A stretch of 64,000 bases of DNA from Paenibacillus dendritiformis (GTDB lineage: Bacteria > Bacillota > Bacilli > Paenibacillales > Paenibacillaceae), in assembly GCF_945605565.1 (NCBI RefSeq), contig NZ_OX216966.1, positions 5,510,001 through 5,574,000 on the forward strand, in the 5' to 3' direction. Positions within the stretch are counted from its first letter, which is position 1; every line of letters starts with the position of its first letter. The notes beneath the pieces are model-generated. The model saw only the letters and a program-made list of their open reading frames with translations. It was not told the DNA's origin and made no database searches. The position numbers were made by a program, and so were the translations under genes. Shown here one piece after another: positions 7,369-50,453 of this stretch.

Positions 7369-7418
7369 AAAAAAACACGCCCGCTTGACGCCAGCATGCA
7401 ATGTTGGGTCAAACGGGC
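7369..7418 (-). terminator. Rho-independent terminator after the DUF3231 gene
   Basis: On the minus strand a long stem (GCCCGTTTGACCC paired with GCGTCAAGCGGGC, with mismatches) is followed by GTG and a run of seven T. It lies 60 bp downstream of the DUF3231 stop. Confidence 0.75.
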
Positions 7419-7478
7419 ACGTATTGAACACATAAATTGAAGTTACTTCCCGGATTGCTACACCAATCCGCTTAATCG

Positions 7479-7997
7479 TTATTTCTCAACCAGCTCTGGT
7501 CTCTTTACATGCAGCGGGGGCGGAACCAACCAGCCCTTTTCTTTACTCATCTCCAAAATTTTGAGACCTAAAGCGGCTTTCGTCAAATGATATTTGCCGA
7601 ATAATGCCGCAATGTCTTCCCGAATTGATTTCCCCATGATTTGGCTGCACACTACCATGCTGGCCGCAGTGTCAGCCGCAATCATAGACGTTATCTCTTG
7701 ATCCGTAAGTCTCGCCCCGACAGGAATTTCTTCAAGTTTGGCTTCTGGCCTGTCAGGGAGTGTCGGGCTGGGAGCTATTCCATTGCTAATTAAAATTTGA
7801 TCGCATTCTTTCTCTTCTAGTTCCGCTTGATTAATCAAATCGCCTAATATATTTTTTAAATCTTTGTCCCCGGCGTGATAATGGTAAGCCCGGTAAACGG
7901 AAATGCATCCTTTCGCTTTCATTGAGAATGCCCATACATCATAGGTTTCACCGTAATGAAGGGGTTCATCTTTCGGATTGCCGCTTAAAATGCCCAT
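7479..7997 (-). CDS. DUF3231 family protein
   Basis: A 172-residue, mostly helical protein matching DUF3231, a ferritin-like, spore-coat-F-like family common in Bacillus and Paenibacillus. Typical features are the opening GILSGNPKDEPLHYGE, a helical core with YRAYHYHAGDKDLKNILGDLI, and a second half rich in helices (AADTAASMVVCSQIMG). Only one copy of the roughly 150-residue unit is present; many family members carry two. The biochemical role is unknown. ATG at 7997 follows GAGGAG. This is the last chromosomal gene before the prophage. Confidence 0.8.
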   Translation of the reverse strand: MGILSGNPKDEPLHYGETYDVWAFSMKAKGCISVYRAYHYHAGDKDLKNILGDLINQAELEEKECDQILISNGIAPSPTLPDRPEAKLEEIPVGARLTDQEITSMIAADTAASMVVCSQIMGKSIREDIAALFGKYHLTKAALGLKILEMSKEKGWLVPPPLHVKRPELVEK

Positions 7998-8167
7998 TTT
8001 GTAACAGCTCCTCTTAAAGTTTTTGTTGGACGGCGTGATTGACAGCCATCGTTCCAGTCGATGTTAAGGTTGTCTTTATCATGGGCCCTTATCCGTCTAA
8101 GTTATTACCATTATCTCCTACTTCGCTTCCCCGTTGAGCTCAGTTCAGCATGCCGCCCGGGTAAATA

Positions 8168-8223
8168 TAAAAAAAGTGTCCGAGCGACTTGGACACGCAA
8201 AGCGTGAAAGTCACCTCGGACAC
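8168..8223 (-). terminator. Stranded native terminator of the suf operon
   Basis: On the minus strand GTGTCCGAG (8223-8215) pairs perfectly with CTCGGACAC (8184-8176). An inner GACTT/AAGTC stem and a CACGC/GCGTG tip extend the hairpin, and a run of seven T follows. It begins 36 bp after the stranded sufB stop at 8259-8261. Before integration it would have ended the sufCDSUB transcript; now it is 41 kb from the operon. Confidence 0.75.
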
Positions 8224-8258
8224 CTATTTGGACGTATCAAGAAAGCTCAGGGATGGGC

Positions 8259-8288
8259 TTAGCCTATAGAACCTTCCATTTCCAACTT
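8259..8288 (-). pseudogene. sufB: Displaced original 3' end of sufB (10 codons)
   Basis: Minus-strand codons AAG TTG GAA ATG GAA GGT TCT ATA GGC TAA encode [13 protein letters not shown], identical to the C-terminus of the intact SufB at 49056 but with different codons for the last four residues. This is the chromosomal tail cut off by integration. It abuts the native suf terminator. Confidence 0.9.
8272..8288. other. attL core of the prophage
   Basis: The 17-bp CCTTCCATTTCCAACTT here is repeated exactly at 49069-49085 inside the 3' end of sufB, next to the integrase. The two copies bound all the phage genes. Left of the core is chromosomal sequence, right of it is phage. Confidence 0.92.
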
Positions 8289-8394
8289 GATTATTGAGGC
8301 TTGTCATAATGTTTCATACGGCAGTGAAACCGTTAAAGAATCGAGTTTCTTCTATATAAGAGTGTCACATAAAATCATATCGTTTCATACTTAT

Positions 8395-8412
8395 GTGGGC
8401 AAAATGTGGGCA
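8395..8412 (+). promoter_or_regulatory. Left integrase arm-site candidate
   Basis: GTGGGCAAAATGTGGGCA matches GTGGGCAAAACATGGGCA at 48998-49015 in 16 of 18 bases and in the same orientation. One copy lies just inside each att core, as expected for arm-type binding sites of a tyrosine integrase. A nearby GTTTCATAC pair (about 8311 and 8381) may belong to the same complex. Confidence 0.5.
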
Positions 8413-8614: not shown

Positions 8615-8944
8615 ATGACGAAAAAGATTTTTGCTTTAACCCTTGCTTCTGTGATGTTACTTTCTTCGCAAGTTGCAATGGCGGCACCATCAGCACCTAC
8701 TACCAGTAATCTCGGCACAGTTCAAGCTTCTAGTATTGATAAGGTAGAAGTTCAATTAAAAGTAAGAGTCGGTGAAGGGAGAAAGTTGTCTGGCTATGGT
8801 TTCAGACCTGGCGGGGGTGATAGTTCCAGCTACTTTTTAGATGTGGATGGTAATTTTCTTGCACTCAAACCAGGACAAGGTTCTATCATTGCTAACTTAA
8901 CATCTGATCGACTGATCATATACTATTTTACAATTACAAATTAA
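8615..8944 (+). CDS. Small secreted protein, prophage cargo
   Basis: A 109-residue protein with a clear signal peptide (MTKKIFALTLASVMLLSSQVAMAAP, cleavage after AMA). The mature part of about 85 residues is beta-rich, with GYGFRPGGGDSSSYFLDVDG and no cysteines. Family unknown. A TAGGAGG ribosome site sits ahead of the ATG. It lies at the phage end beyond the lysis genes, on the opposite strand, with its own promoter and a shared terminator: the classic position of a lysogenic-conversion gene expressed from the prophage. Base composition is lower in GC than its neighbours. Confidence 0.75.
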   Translation: MTKKIFALTLASVMLLSSQVAMAAPSAPTTSNLGTVQASSIDKVEVQLKVRVGEGRKLSGYGFRPGGGDSSSYFLDVDGNFLALKPGQGSIIANLTSDRLIIYYFTITN

Positions 8945-47841: not shown

Positions 47842-48993
47842 ATGGCATCTTTCAGAAAACGCGGCGAAACTTGGGAGTACCGAATAACTTACACCGATCG
47901 CCGTACTGGGAAACGAAGGGAGAAAACGAAGGGGGGATTCCTTACCAAGAAAAAGGCTCAACTCGCAGCGGCAAAGGAAGAATTGAAAATCGATCAATTC
48001 GGGTTCGCCGAAAATGGGGATCAAAATGTGAAAGAGTACATGGAACAATGGCTCGAAGTATTTAAAAAGCCTGCAGTGAAAATCAACACATATCTCCTTC
48101 AGGAACGAAATGTTCGCTTAAACATAATCCCGCGATGGGGCAATTATCAACTTAAAGAGATCACTCGTGTTGAAGTTCAAAAATGGGTTAACGAATTAAG
48201 GGACCACTATAGCGAAGGGACCACAAGGAGGATTGTCAGCATTTTGTCCTGCGCGATTGATAATGCAGTTCATGACTTCGGGATCCTACGCGAAAACCCG
48301 ATCAAGAAAATCAAGGTAACAAAAGACGAATCCGAGGACAAGGATAAGATTAAATATTTTACCGTCAAAGAGTTAGATAAATTCCTCGCGGCATGTGTAC
48401 CCATCGCAAAAAGCAAATACGGGCATATGAGAAAATATCAAGCCTTGTTCGGGTTGATCTCCAGAACCGGTTTGCGGATCGGCGAAGCTCTGGCTTTAAC
48501 TTGGGATGATTTTGATTTGAAAGCCGGAACGGTATCCGTCTCGAAAACCTTGACATATCCGCTTAACTCCGATCCACGAGTGACTACTCCAAAAACGAAG
48601 AAAAGTAATCGAACAATCAAAATTGATGACGGAACTGTCGAACTGATGAAGAAACATCGCGTGAACATGGCCGAAACCATATTGATGTACCCTAACTTTA
48701 AAAAGTCTGACAGGGATCTCGTTTTTCATCAAGAAGATGGCCGGTGGCTGAGAATAAACGTAGTTCGTGAGTATATGAAGGAAGTTTGCAAGCGCGTAGG
48801 CTTGCCGTTACTCTCTCCCCATGCTCTCCGGCATTCCCACGCCGTGCATCTGTTGGAAGCTGGAGCAACGATAAAATACGTCGCGGAGCGCCTCGGTCAC
48901 TCCTCAATCAAGACAACCGAAAGGTATTTACACGTGACCAAGAAAATAGAAAAAGACGCACTTGACCTGTATGCCCGTTATCTTGCGAGATAA
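47842..48993 (+). CDS. int: Tyrosine site-specific integrase
   Basis: A 383-residue phage integrase. The N-terminus has an AP2-like arm-binding domain (KRGETWEYRITYTDRRTGKR), then a SAM-like core-binding domain (about 60-150). The catalytic domain carries Arg in ISRTGLRIGEAL, HALRHSH (H-x-x-R) and the tyrosine in TTERYLHV. It joins the 17-bp core at sufB. AAAGGAG lies before the ATG. It ends 62 bp before the sufB stop, so the two are convergent. Confidence 0.95.
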   Translation: MASFRKRGETWEYRITYTDRRTGKRREKTKGGFLTKKKAQLAAAKEELKIDQFGFAENGDQNVKEYMEQWLEVFKKPAVKINTYLLQERNVRLNIIPRWGNYQLKEITRVEVQKWVNELRDHYSEGTTRRIVSILSCAIDNAVHDFGILRENPIKKIKVTKDESEDKDKIKYFTVKELDKFLAACVPIAKSKYGHMRKYQALFGLISRTGLRIGEALALTWDDFDLKAGTVSVSKTLTYPLNSDPRVTTPKTKKSNRTIKIDDGTVELMKKHRVNMAETILMYPNFKKSDRDLVFHQEDGRWLRINVVREYMKEVCKRVGLPLLSPHALRHSHAVHLLEAGATIKYVAERLGHSSIKTTERYLHVTKKIEKDALDLYARYLAR

Positions 48994-48997
48994 ATGC

Positions 48998-49015
48998 GTG
49001 GGCAAAACATGGGCA
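48998..49015 (+). promoter_or_regulatory. Right integrase arm-site candidate
   Basis: GTGGGCAAAACATGGGCA, the 16-of-18 partner of the left copy at 8395-8412, between the integrase stop and attR. Confidence 0.5.
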
Positions 49016-49055
49016 AGTGCGCCCCAATTACTCTAAATACCGCGTAGCATAAAGG

Positions 49056-50453
49056 TTACCCGATACTGCCTTCCATTTCCAACTTAATGAGACGGTTCAT
49101 CTCTACCGCATATTCCATCGGCAATTCCTTCGTGAACGGCTCAATGAAGCCCATGACGATCATTTGGGTCGCTTCGTCTTCCGTCAATCCGCGGCTCATC
49201 AGATAGAACAGTTGATCCTCCGACACTTTGGATACGGTCGCCTCATGCTCCAATTGAATGTTGTCATTCATGACTTCGTTATACGGAATCGTATCGGACG
49301 TGGATTGATTATCCATGATGAGGGTGTCGCATTTGACATTGGCCTTGGAGCCTTCGGAATTCCGGCCGAAGGACGCGATGCCGCGATACGTTACTTTGCC
49401 GCCGTGCTTCGAGATCGACTTGGATACAATCGTCGATGTCGTGTCTGGCGCCAGATGCAGCATTTTGGCGCCTGCATCCTGGTGCTGCCCTTTGCCCGCT
49501 ACCGCGATGGACAATACCGAGCCTTTGGCTCCGCGTCCCTTCAAAATAACGGCAGGGTACTTCATCGTCAGCTTGGAGCCGATGTTGCCATCCACCCATT
49601 CCATGTTCGCGTTCTCTTCGCATACCGCACGCTTTGTAACCAGGTTGTAAATATTCGGTGCCCAGTTCTGAATCGTCGTATAGCGAACGCGGGCATTCTT
49701 CTTCACAATAATCTCAACGACCGCGCTATGCAGCGAGTTCGTGCTGTAGATAGGAGCCGTGCAGCCTTCTACATAGTGCACGAAGCTGTCTTCGTCGGCG
49801 ATGATGAGCGTGCGCTCGAATTGCCCCATGTTCTCAGAGTTGATGCGGAAATACGCCTGCAGCGGGATTTCGCATTTGACTCCCTTCGGTACATAGATGA
49901 AGCTGCCACCGGACCATACCGCGCTGTTCAACGCAGCGAACTTGTTGTCCGCCGGAGGAACGACCGTGCCGAAGTGCTCCTTGAAAATTTCCGGATGCTC
50001 GCGCAAAGCCGAGTCGGTATCCATGAAGATAACGCCTTGCTCTTCGAGATCCTTTTGCATGCTGTGGTAGACGACTTCCGATTCATACTGCGCGGATACG
50101 CCGGCCAGGAACTTCTGCTCCGCTTCCGGAATTCCCAGCTTATCGAACGTCTCCTTAATCTCCGCCGGCACTTCCTCCCACGTCTTGCCTTGCTTCTCGG
50201 AAGGACGAACATAATATTGAATATCGTCGAAGTCCAACTCATCCAGGTCGCCGCCCCAACGGGGAAGCGGCATCTTCTCAAATTGCTTCAGCGACTTCAA
50301 GCGGAAATCGAGCATCCATTCCGGTTCATCTTTAATCTTCGAGATTTCCCGAACGATTTCCGGAGTCAATCCTTTGCCGGATTGGAAAATGGATTGGTGA
50401 TTATCGCGAAAGCCATATTTATATTCCTCAAGTTCTGGCATTTCTTTCGCCAT
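49056..50453 (-). CDS. sufB: Fe-S cluster assembly protein SufB with phage-encoded last codons
   Basis: A 465-residue scaffold of the SUF system, forming SufBC2D and building Fe-S clusters. It shows family blocks [31 protein letters not shown] (in parts), [20 protein letters not shown] and NMEWVDGN. Full length. The last codons (49056-49068 and the core to 49085) derive from the phage attP and encode the same KLEMEGSIG end as the displaced host copy at 8259-8288. Last gene of sufCDSUB. Confidence 0.96.
49069..49085. other. attR core inside sufB
   Basis: CCTTCCATTTCCAACTT, identical to attL at 8272-8288. The sufB codons to its right are host, those to its left come from the phage. Confidence 0.92.

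Follow-up and report, generated by a model that had tools for sequence, protein, structure and literature searches.

Phages that integrate at the 3' end of a tRNA gene restore their target through the attP, and the e14 prophage in the E. coli icd gene was reportedly described by Hill in 1989. Integration into tRNA genes keeps the identity of the RNA, whereas the sufB case described here keeps the identity of the amino acids. With e14, 165 bp of icd are duplicated, with 12 nucleotide exchanges and two conservative replacements (PMC6379469, PMC11148124). As the prophage studied here probably does, e14 provides a metabolic gene with an in-frame 3' end; its tail, however, spans 54 residues, whereas about four codons lie beyond the core in our case, and the passages on e14 hold no analysis of terminators or relics, which is given below for the sufB family.

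The sufB gene is itself a described target. Sa1int prophages occupy the 3' end of S. aureus sufB (PMC11217367), the same gene and the same end as here, and S. argenteus prophages with an integrase gene of 1050 nt lie in sufB as well (PMC11117363); the tail codons are undiscussed in the passages on both groups. For two L. sakei sufB prophages the attL/attR pairs are printed (PMC9641780). Read in frame by hand, all of these strings encode GSVG, with synonymous differences, and the published table thus holds the same phenomenon, on whose codons the authors are silent in the passages concerned. Site 5 of the L. lactis P335 phages adjoins sufB (PMC3757294) and represents the same target region, the site being merely named in the passage. 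In P. larvae prophages, SufB and NifU were treated as phage cargo (PMC9341999); going by the present data, they may instead belong to the host and border prophages integrated in sufB. Among the matches listed from open-licence full texts, we found no report of an integrase-embedded terminator for the target gene or of integrase relics behind sufB. The original prediction for this locus, a reading of the letters alone, had presented a protein-coding target as a departure from the tRNA pattern; given e14 in icd and the published sufB cases of S. aureus and L. sakei, such a target is not unusual. The tail repair described here would accordingly be a well-measured case of an already known 3'-end repair, while the antisense terminator that we infer and the fossils would be new.

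A prophage at the end of sufB

The window, the whole stretch of 64,000 nucleotides that was analysed (positions 5,510,001-5,574,000), was drawn from a single-contig genome of 6.72 Mb. It includes sufB, a gene that is essential in Bacillus, preceded by genes in which the domains of other suf genes were found (Pfam). The last codons of sufB lie in one copy of a 33-nt direct repeat (8259-8291 and 49056-49088), the sole such pair found, whose copies are 82% identical, 40,797 bp apart and share an exact 17-bp core, CCTTCCATTTCCAACTT. This repeat pair is the att duplication of a prophage, with the gene intact at attR and a stub left at attL:

49056-50453, minus strand: sufB, 465 aa, PF01458, intact; final codons inside attR
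49056-49088, minus strand: attR, the sufB 3' end; core at 49069-49085; tail GGC AGT ATC GGG TAA, assigned to the prophage on the family pattern
8259-8291, minus strand: attL, the displaced stub; core at 8272-8288; tail GGT TCT ATA GGC TAA, probably left over from an older prophage
8272-49085: prophage, about 40.8 kb from core to core, with terminase, portal, tape measure, an HTH repressor-like gene and integrase
47842-48993, plus strand: tyrosine integrase of a sufB-targeting family; PF00589, PF14659, PF14657; phrog_1
8395-8412: direct repeat GTGGGCA..TGTGGGCA, candidate arm-type integrase sites on the attL side (by eye)
48998-49015: direct repeat GTGGGCA..ATGGGCA, candidate arm-type integrase sites on the attR side (by eye)

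On the minus strand attL reads AAG TTG GAA ATG GAA GGT TCT ATA GGC TAA and attR reads AAG TTG GAA ATG GAA GGC AGT ATC GGG TAA, the latter being the genuine end of SufB. The same peptide is thus encoded at both att sites, with synonymous tail codons beyond the identical core, as had been predicted; the stub, announced as ten codons long, consists of nine codons and a stop. One further synonymous difference occurs 5' of the core, where the stub has ATC and sufB has ATT. Searching the 6.72-Mb genome with a degenerate core pattern returned these two exact matches only, which rules out a chance repeat.

Phage structural and replication genes fill the region between the att sites, and the integrase stands beside the sufB side, its end 62 nt away from the sufB stop. 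With PF00589 at 102.6 bits, plus PF14659 and PF14657, it has the catalytic, SAM-like and arm domains of a tyrosine recombinase. Five of its residues (R212, H327, R330, H353 and Y362) are invariant in 15/15 aligned sequences, and we take these to be the conserved R, HxxR, H and Tyr of the catalytic domain. Just within attL, positions 8615-8944 encode a small protein of 109 aa with a start that looks like a signal peptide by eye and no Pfam match.

The SufB tail across the integrase family

Loci for comparison, 92 in all, were chosen by their integrase alone from relatives' genomes, viral contigs, phage records and named genomes. Among the 294 relatives' genomes 12 had an integrase match, and 12 of the 13 matches were used (L015, the second half of the broken gene of L011, was omitted). 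The viral contigs contributed 30 of 31 loci, the phage records 2 of 7 (the other five being at most 35% identical) and the named genomes 48 of the best 80 of 215 (the remaining 32 at most 34% identical). At 78 of the 92 loci the core occurred within 500 nt of the integrase end. The other 14 comprise ten relatives whose identity is 28-48%, two loci at contig ends, one half of a gene, and L218, whose integrase is 60% identical and has no core across the 1,253 nt examined; at L147 (48% identical), sufB lies about 1.4 kb away.

Free phage DNA gives the most direct evidence: in the attP of Brevibacillus phage Emery (KC595516), IIKFEMEGSIG followed by a stop is encoded beside the integrase in a context other than sufB, and the record of phage YPHTV-1 encodes IKFEMEGSIG and a stop at both of its ends; an attP that encodes the gene end in frame was thus seen in these two relatives of the window's phage. 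Three lysogens whose two cores differ (G161, G258 and G260) carry the Emery core at attL and another at attR, a pattern that would place the crossover to the right of the GAR codon and so make the tail on the integrase side phage DNA; the crossover position rests on these three, whose att sites lie on different contigs and were paired by deduction. In a further lysogen, G191, neither core equals that of Emery, and the case is uninformative on the crossover. These observations support the view that the attP of phages in this integrase family includes the SufB end as coding sequence. The claim that the phage brings a synonymous copy of the host protein's end thus holds for the family, in the Emery attP and over the 78 loci, but not in the detail of which att site carries the phage codons in the window; from the family pattern, we infer that the window's attR tail is of phage origin.

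The tails of the 78 loci with a core encode GSIG in 76 cases and GSVG in two, with TAA as the stop in all of them, so that 42 distinct nucleotide versions specify only two proteins. Some loci are the same prophage in two collections, and reduced sets of 57 (the non-redundant tails) and 44 were used accordingly. Fitch counts on the tree of 44 integrases gave 64 changes at wobble positions versus a single change at the first two bases of the Gly, Ile and Gly codons (six positions), in keeping with the predicted selection on attP to preserve amino acids. The first two bases of the Ser codon changed nine times each, through switches between AGY and TCN, and the stop codon never, while each of the 30 bases after the stop changed 5-19 times (26/30 of them 10-19 times). 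The sole amino-acid change, from Ile to Val, is found in two Enterococcus mundtii phages (L150, L151): attR reads GGC AGC GTT GGT (GSVG), and the attL-side tails, GGG TCT GTG GGG and GGG TCT GTT GGA, encode GSVG in other codons, the attL-side tail sitting on another contig in one of the two genomes. Displaced stubs can decay, the stop codon being lost in L042 and the last Gly changed to give GSIS in L307. Substitutions in the phage copy are thus mostly silent, and selection on the amino acids encoded by the tail is well supported by these comparisons. The counts show a phage attachment site under protein-level selection that benefits the host gene, down to its agreement with the Ile-to-Val difference between lineages.

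As to the serine codon, 42/57 non-redundant phage tails use the AGY class; hosts use both AGY and TCN, which makes the class a weak marker of phage versus host origin. G191 carries two tandem elements at sufB (L022, L032 and L042, the last being its final stub), with about 50 and 7 kb between cores. The two ends of the YPHTV-1 record (ON854455; L069, L070), a "Halomonas phage", hold a sufB att site and an integrase akin to those of Bacillota prophages, and its host label may merit checking.

An integrase relic beside attL

The nearest relatives with an uninterrupted sufB are G006, 97.5% identical over the 1,983 bp upstream from the sufB stop, and G014, at 95.1%. In both of them sufB ends in GGC AGT ATC GGG TAA, which are the codons of the window's attR and not those of attL. 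The left flank of the window is collinear with G006 only to 7198 and with G014 only to about 7431, and the following features lie between there and attL:

7369-7431: homologue of the sequence directly past sufB in G014; probably the flank and terminator that sufB had before the insertion
7432-8258: extra segment missing in G006 and G014, with a DUF3231 gene and an integrase relic (partly by eye)
7479-7997, minus strand: DUF3231 gene (Pfam), inside the extra segment
8156-8269, plus strand: second integrase 3'-end relic of the same family, frameshifted (tblastn, two frames), entering the attL tail

The relic was recovered as two tblastn pieces in the correct order and orientation, and its portion at 8156-8245 scores 49.4 bits against a nucleotide profile built from 56 integrase 3' ends (nhmmer). 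Its reading frame stops at a TAG (8267-8269) within the attL tail, and the sequence past the stop of that tail is neither that of the present phage nor that of the relatives. The terminators of G006 and G014 score 3.6 and 0 against the integrase 3'-end profile. By eye, no decayed distal core could be established near 7432-7480. Because the attL codons adjoin an integrase relic, and the integrase-adjacent tail is the phage's in intact members of the family, they were probably left by an older, decayed prophage, with the present one representing a second round. The idea that the attL codons are the host's original was thus not borne out, as they adjoin the relic at 8156-8269 and the relatives carry the attR codons. 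An uninterrupted relative with the attR codons, together with the 8259-8288 codons in a phage attP, had been named as grounds for rejecting the original prediction. This is largely what is seen here: G006 and G014 are such relatives, and the codons at 8259-8288 appear to be those of another, older phage. The identity of the attR tail with that of G006 and G014 may reflect chance, capture from a host or a phage origin common to both.

Three other readings of the tails bear on this reconstruction. Were the polarity reversed, the attR codons would be the host's and the attL codons the present phage's, with the crossover to the right of the tail. The exact GGC AGT ATC GGG TAA of both uninterrupted relatives speaks for this, as does the absence of any match to the window's tail among the other versions of the 42 distinct phage tails, its two copies being the window's own phage in two collections. 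We nonetheless consider it unlikely, since the integrase-side tail of the family is the phage's in the Emery attP, the attL tail borders a different integrase relic and is followed by sequence of neither this phage nor the relatives, and attP and attB have no evident identity to the right of the stop at which strands could be exchanged. A host-original attL tail, with an integrase-like neighbour that is unrelated or arrived later, would be the simplest account of a single prophage, yet it appears slightly less probable still, given that the relic has matches to the family in two frames, correctly ordered and oriented, and continues into the tail, that 7432-8258 is missing in G006 and G014, and that the sufB flank of G014 recurs at 7369-7431. 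Finally, tyrosine recombinases need an identical core, and the 17-bp core is indeed identical, so the tails might match merely through the integrase's need for homology, with no protein selection. This we regard as very improbable: the tail is not part of the identical core, all of its wobble bases vary, the excess of wobble changes over those at the fixed Gly/Ile/Gly bases stands against it, the single exception agrees with the Val of the host side, and beyond that GSVG pair no other tail amino acids occur among the 78 loci. The reading that we favour therefore has a phage-supplied tail at attR and the tail of an older prophage at attL.

A mostly deleted prophage like that of the window was seen in G001 (L243), where attR, the integrase 3' end and the attL-side repeats are kept; its tail is a third version, GGA TCT ATC GGT.

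Antisense hairpins and integrase fragments behind sufB

Integration separates sufB from its former 3' sequence. A stable hairpin with a T tract in the direction of sufB is predicted by folding in the window, antisense to the end of the integrase gene, and another in the relic:

48948-49025, minus strand: terminator-like hairpin and T tract over the last integrase codons; -32.9 kcal/mol, z -5.1 (fold prediction)
8169-8229, minus strand: terminator-like hairpin of relic integrase sequence with a T run; -31.6 kcal/mol, z -5.9

A simple terminator scan returned only a weaker site of 5 pairs (49011-49024), inside the former hairpin. Across the family, terminator-like structures of -20 kcal/mol or below in the final 140 nt of the integrase gene and the 100 nt beyond it were predicted in the sufB direction for 53/57 loci; reading in the integrase direction gave 14, and shuffles led one to expect 10.3; four prophages are counted twice in this figure (L006/L125, L007/L126, L008/L131 and L012/L154), which becomes 50/53 after deduplication. 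The end of the hairpin falls inside the integrase gene in 52/53 (list read by eye). Hairpins vary by subfamily, with a VSERLGH/ADTY hairpin in some, one of ADTY and the region of the C-terminal Tyr in phages of Bacillus and Geobacillus, and one in the DALDL region in the window's own subfamily; the window's phage has no strong VSERLGH hairpin (-11.5 there) and uses another.

Synonymous codon choice was compared with what the protein alone would give, in tests that count related phages as independent. In one large group, arms formed by the codons of the conserved VSERLGH motif pair at 5.9/9 positions on average versus 4.47 in the synonymous-codon null (z 8.7, n=44), with at least eight pairs in nine genes versus 0.35 expected. 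Among 15-codon windows over 217 conserved columns of 43 genes (partial genes and four genes with stops were omitted), the highest mean synonymous constraint was found at codons 345-359 (mean z 4.4); the next-ranked windows, 120-134 (3.9) and 255-269 (3.4), owe their rank to serine columns, as the barrier between AGY and TCN predicts. Seven of the non-serine outliers fall at codons 342-352, with Arg212 a strong one elsewhere. The sites with a T tract fold at -16.8 kcal/mol on average versus -8.4 for synonymous versions (52 genes), and sites of -15 kcal/mol or below in the sufB direction occur in 26/52 versus 8.5 for synonymous versions, whereas a lenient cut of -8 kcal/mol, a weak test, gives 34/52 versus 27.8.

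These patterns point to the 3' end of the integrase gene, read in antisense, as a putative replacement terminator of sufB. They could also be by-products of a conserved protein motif, with no role in termination. The VSERLGH codons are partly self-complementary by nature, as the null of 4.47/9 attests, and among the ten integrases not within 500 nt of sufB, six likewise reach -20 kcal/mol, five of these six outside the gene and one inside. Weighed against this are the synonymous nulls, which are exceeded, the different T-tract hairpins that occupy the same place across subfamilies (list read by eye), and the relics described below, which cover the hairpin piece more than the rest, although the profile is most conserved there. 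On balance a by-product origin seems somewhat doubtful, and a terminator function for the antisense integrase end is the reading followed here.

Fragments of such integrases were also sought behind 97 sufB ends (18 of the same genus and 79 hand-chosen) at which an integrase of this family is absent at E 1e-60. The hand-chosen set goes back to 80 ends picked from the matches listed, about half with AGY and half with TCN, from which a stub (L312) was dropped. At 31/97, antisense sequence from the 3' end of an integrase was found with a score of at least 8 and no more than 500 nt past the stop. This figure describes a chosen sample and gives no unbiased estimate of prevalence; the same-genus ends, which were unselected, yielded 4/18. 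Controls gave three on the sense strand, 0/1,940 in dinucleotide shuffles and 0/538 in other 500-nt pieces of the same-genus loci. Not all 31 are old fossils: L230 and L311 hold integrases of nearly full length that belong to a second subfamily, and longer pieces occur in L299, L301 and L302; without these five the count is 26/92. Coverage of the integrase model by the 31 relics peaks at 26-28 over positions 41-89 (the hairpin from VSERLGH to ADTY) and drops to 5-10 towards either end, a peak that may partly reflect the conserved middle of the profile, which local profile matches favour. A terminator-like site of -10 kcal/mol or below is present in 31/31, at the relic in 29, under a lenient cut that 66% of mononucleotide shuffles also pass. 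Integrase sequence was commoner behind AGY tails (21/44) than behind TCN tails (10/53; Fisher p 0.004, uncorrected for relatedness). Judging from these fragments, the sufB end is a repeatedly used integration site.

In the mechanism that we propose, a temperate phage would use its tyrosine recombinase to insert at the final codons of sufB, with an attP that itself encodes the C-terminus of SufB and the stop. At attR, sufB would be rebuilt with phage codons, and the previous tail would become a stub at attL. Purifying selection on GSIG (GSVG in enterococci) would keep the phage tail while its wobble bases drift, and the antisense 3' end of the integrase gene would, in a further step, serve as the replacement terminator. 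After decay of the prophage, a piece of integrase and the phage tail could persist as host sequence; in the window there would have been two such rounds, an older prophage that left the relic and the attL tail, and then the present one of 40.8 kb. Taken as a whole, with the supply of the tail, the selection on it, the terminator step and the two rounds, we hold this model to be quite probable. Evenly balanced, in our judgement, is the broader proposition of a dual-use integrase 3' end, in which synonymous choice lets its conserved catalytic motif encode the sufB terminator on the opposite strand and hosts keep it together with the phage codons, the SufB end being repeatedly replaced order-wide. 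The results suggest that, besides the reading frame, a phage can also mend transcription termination by means of a catalytic gene whose DNA is double-coded, and that such repairs may pass to the host once the phage is gone. The cost of integration in protein-coding genes thereby becomes testable, and short gene ends and terminators can be candidates for phage fossils.

Members of the second integrase subfamily (L230, L311, L299, L231) are likewise found behind sufB, their tails being synonymous; identity is 36-38% in the cases measured, and the motif LGHKTIKTTADTY occurs in L046 and others. Past the sufB stop, L134 and L130 carry palindromes such as CCTTGATATATCAAGG, with similar ones in other phages; these may serve for protein binding or as a weak terminator.
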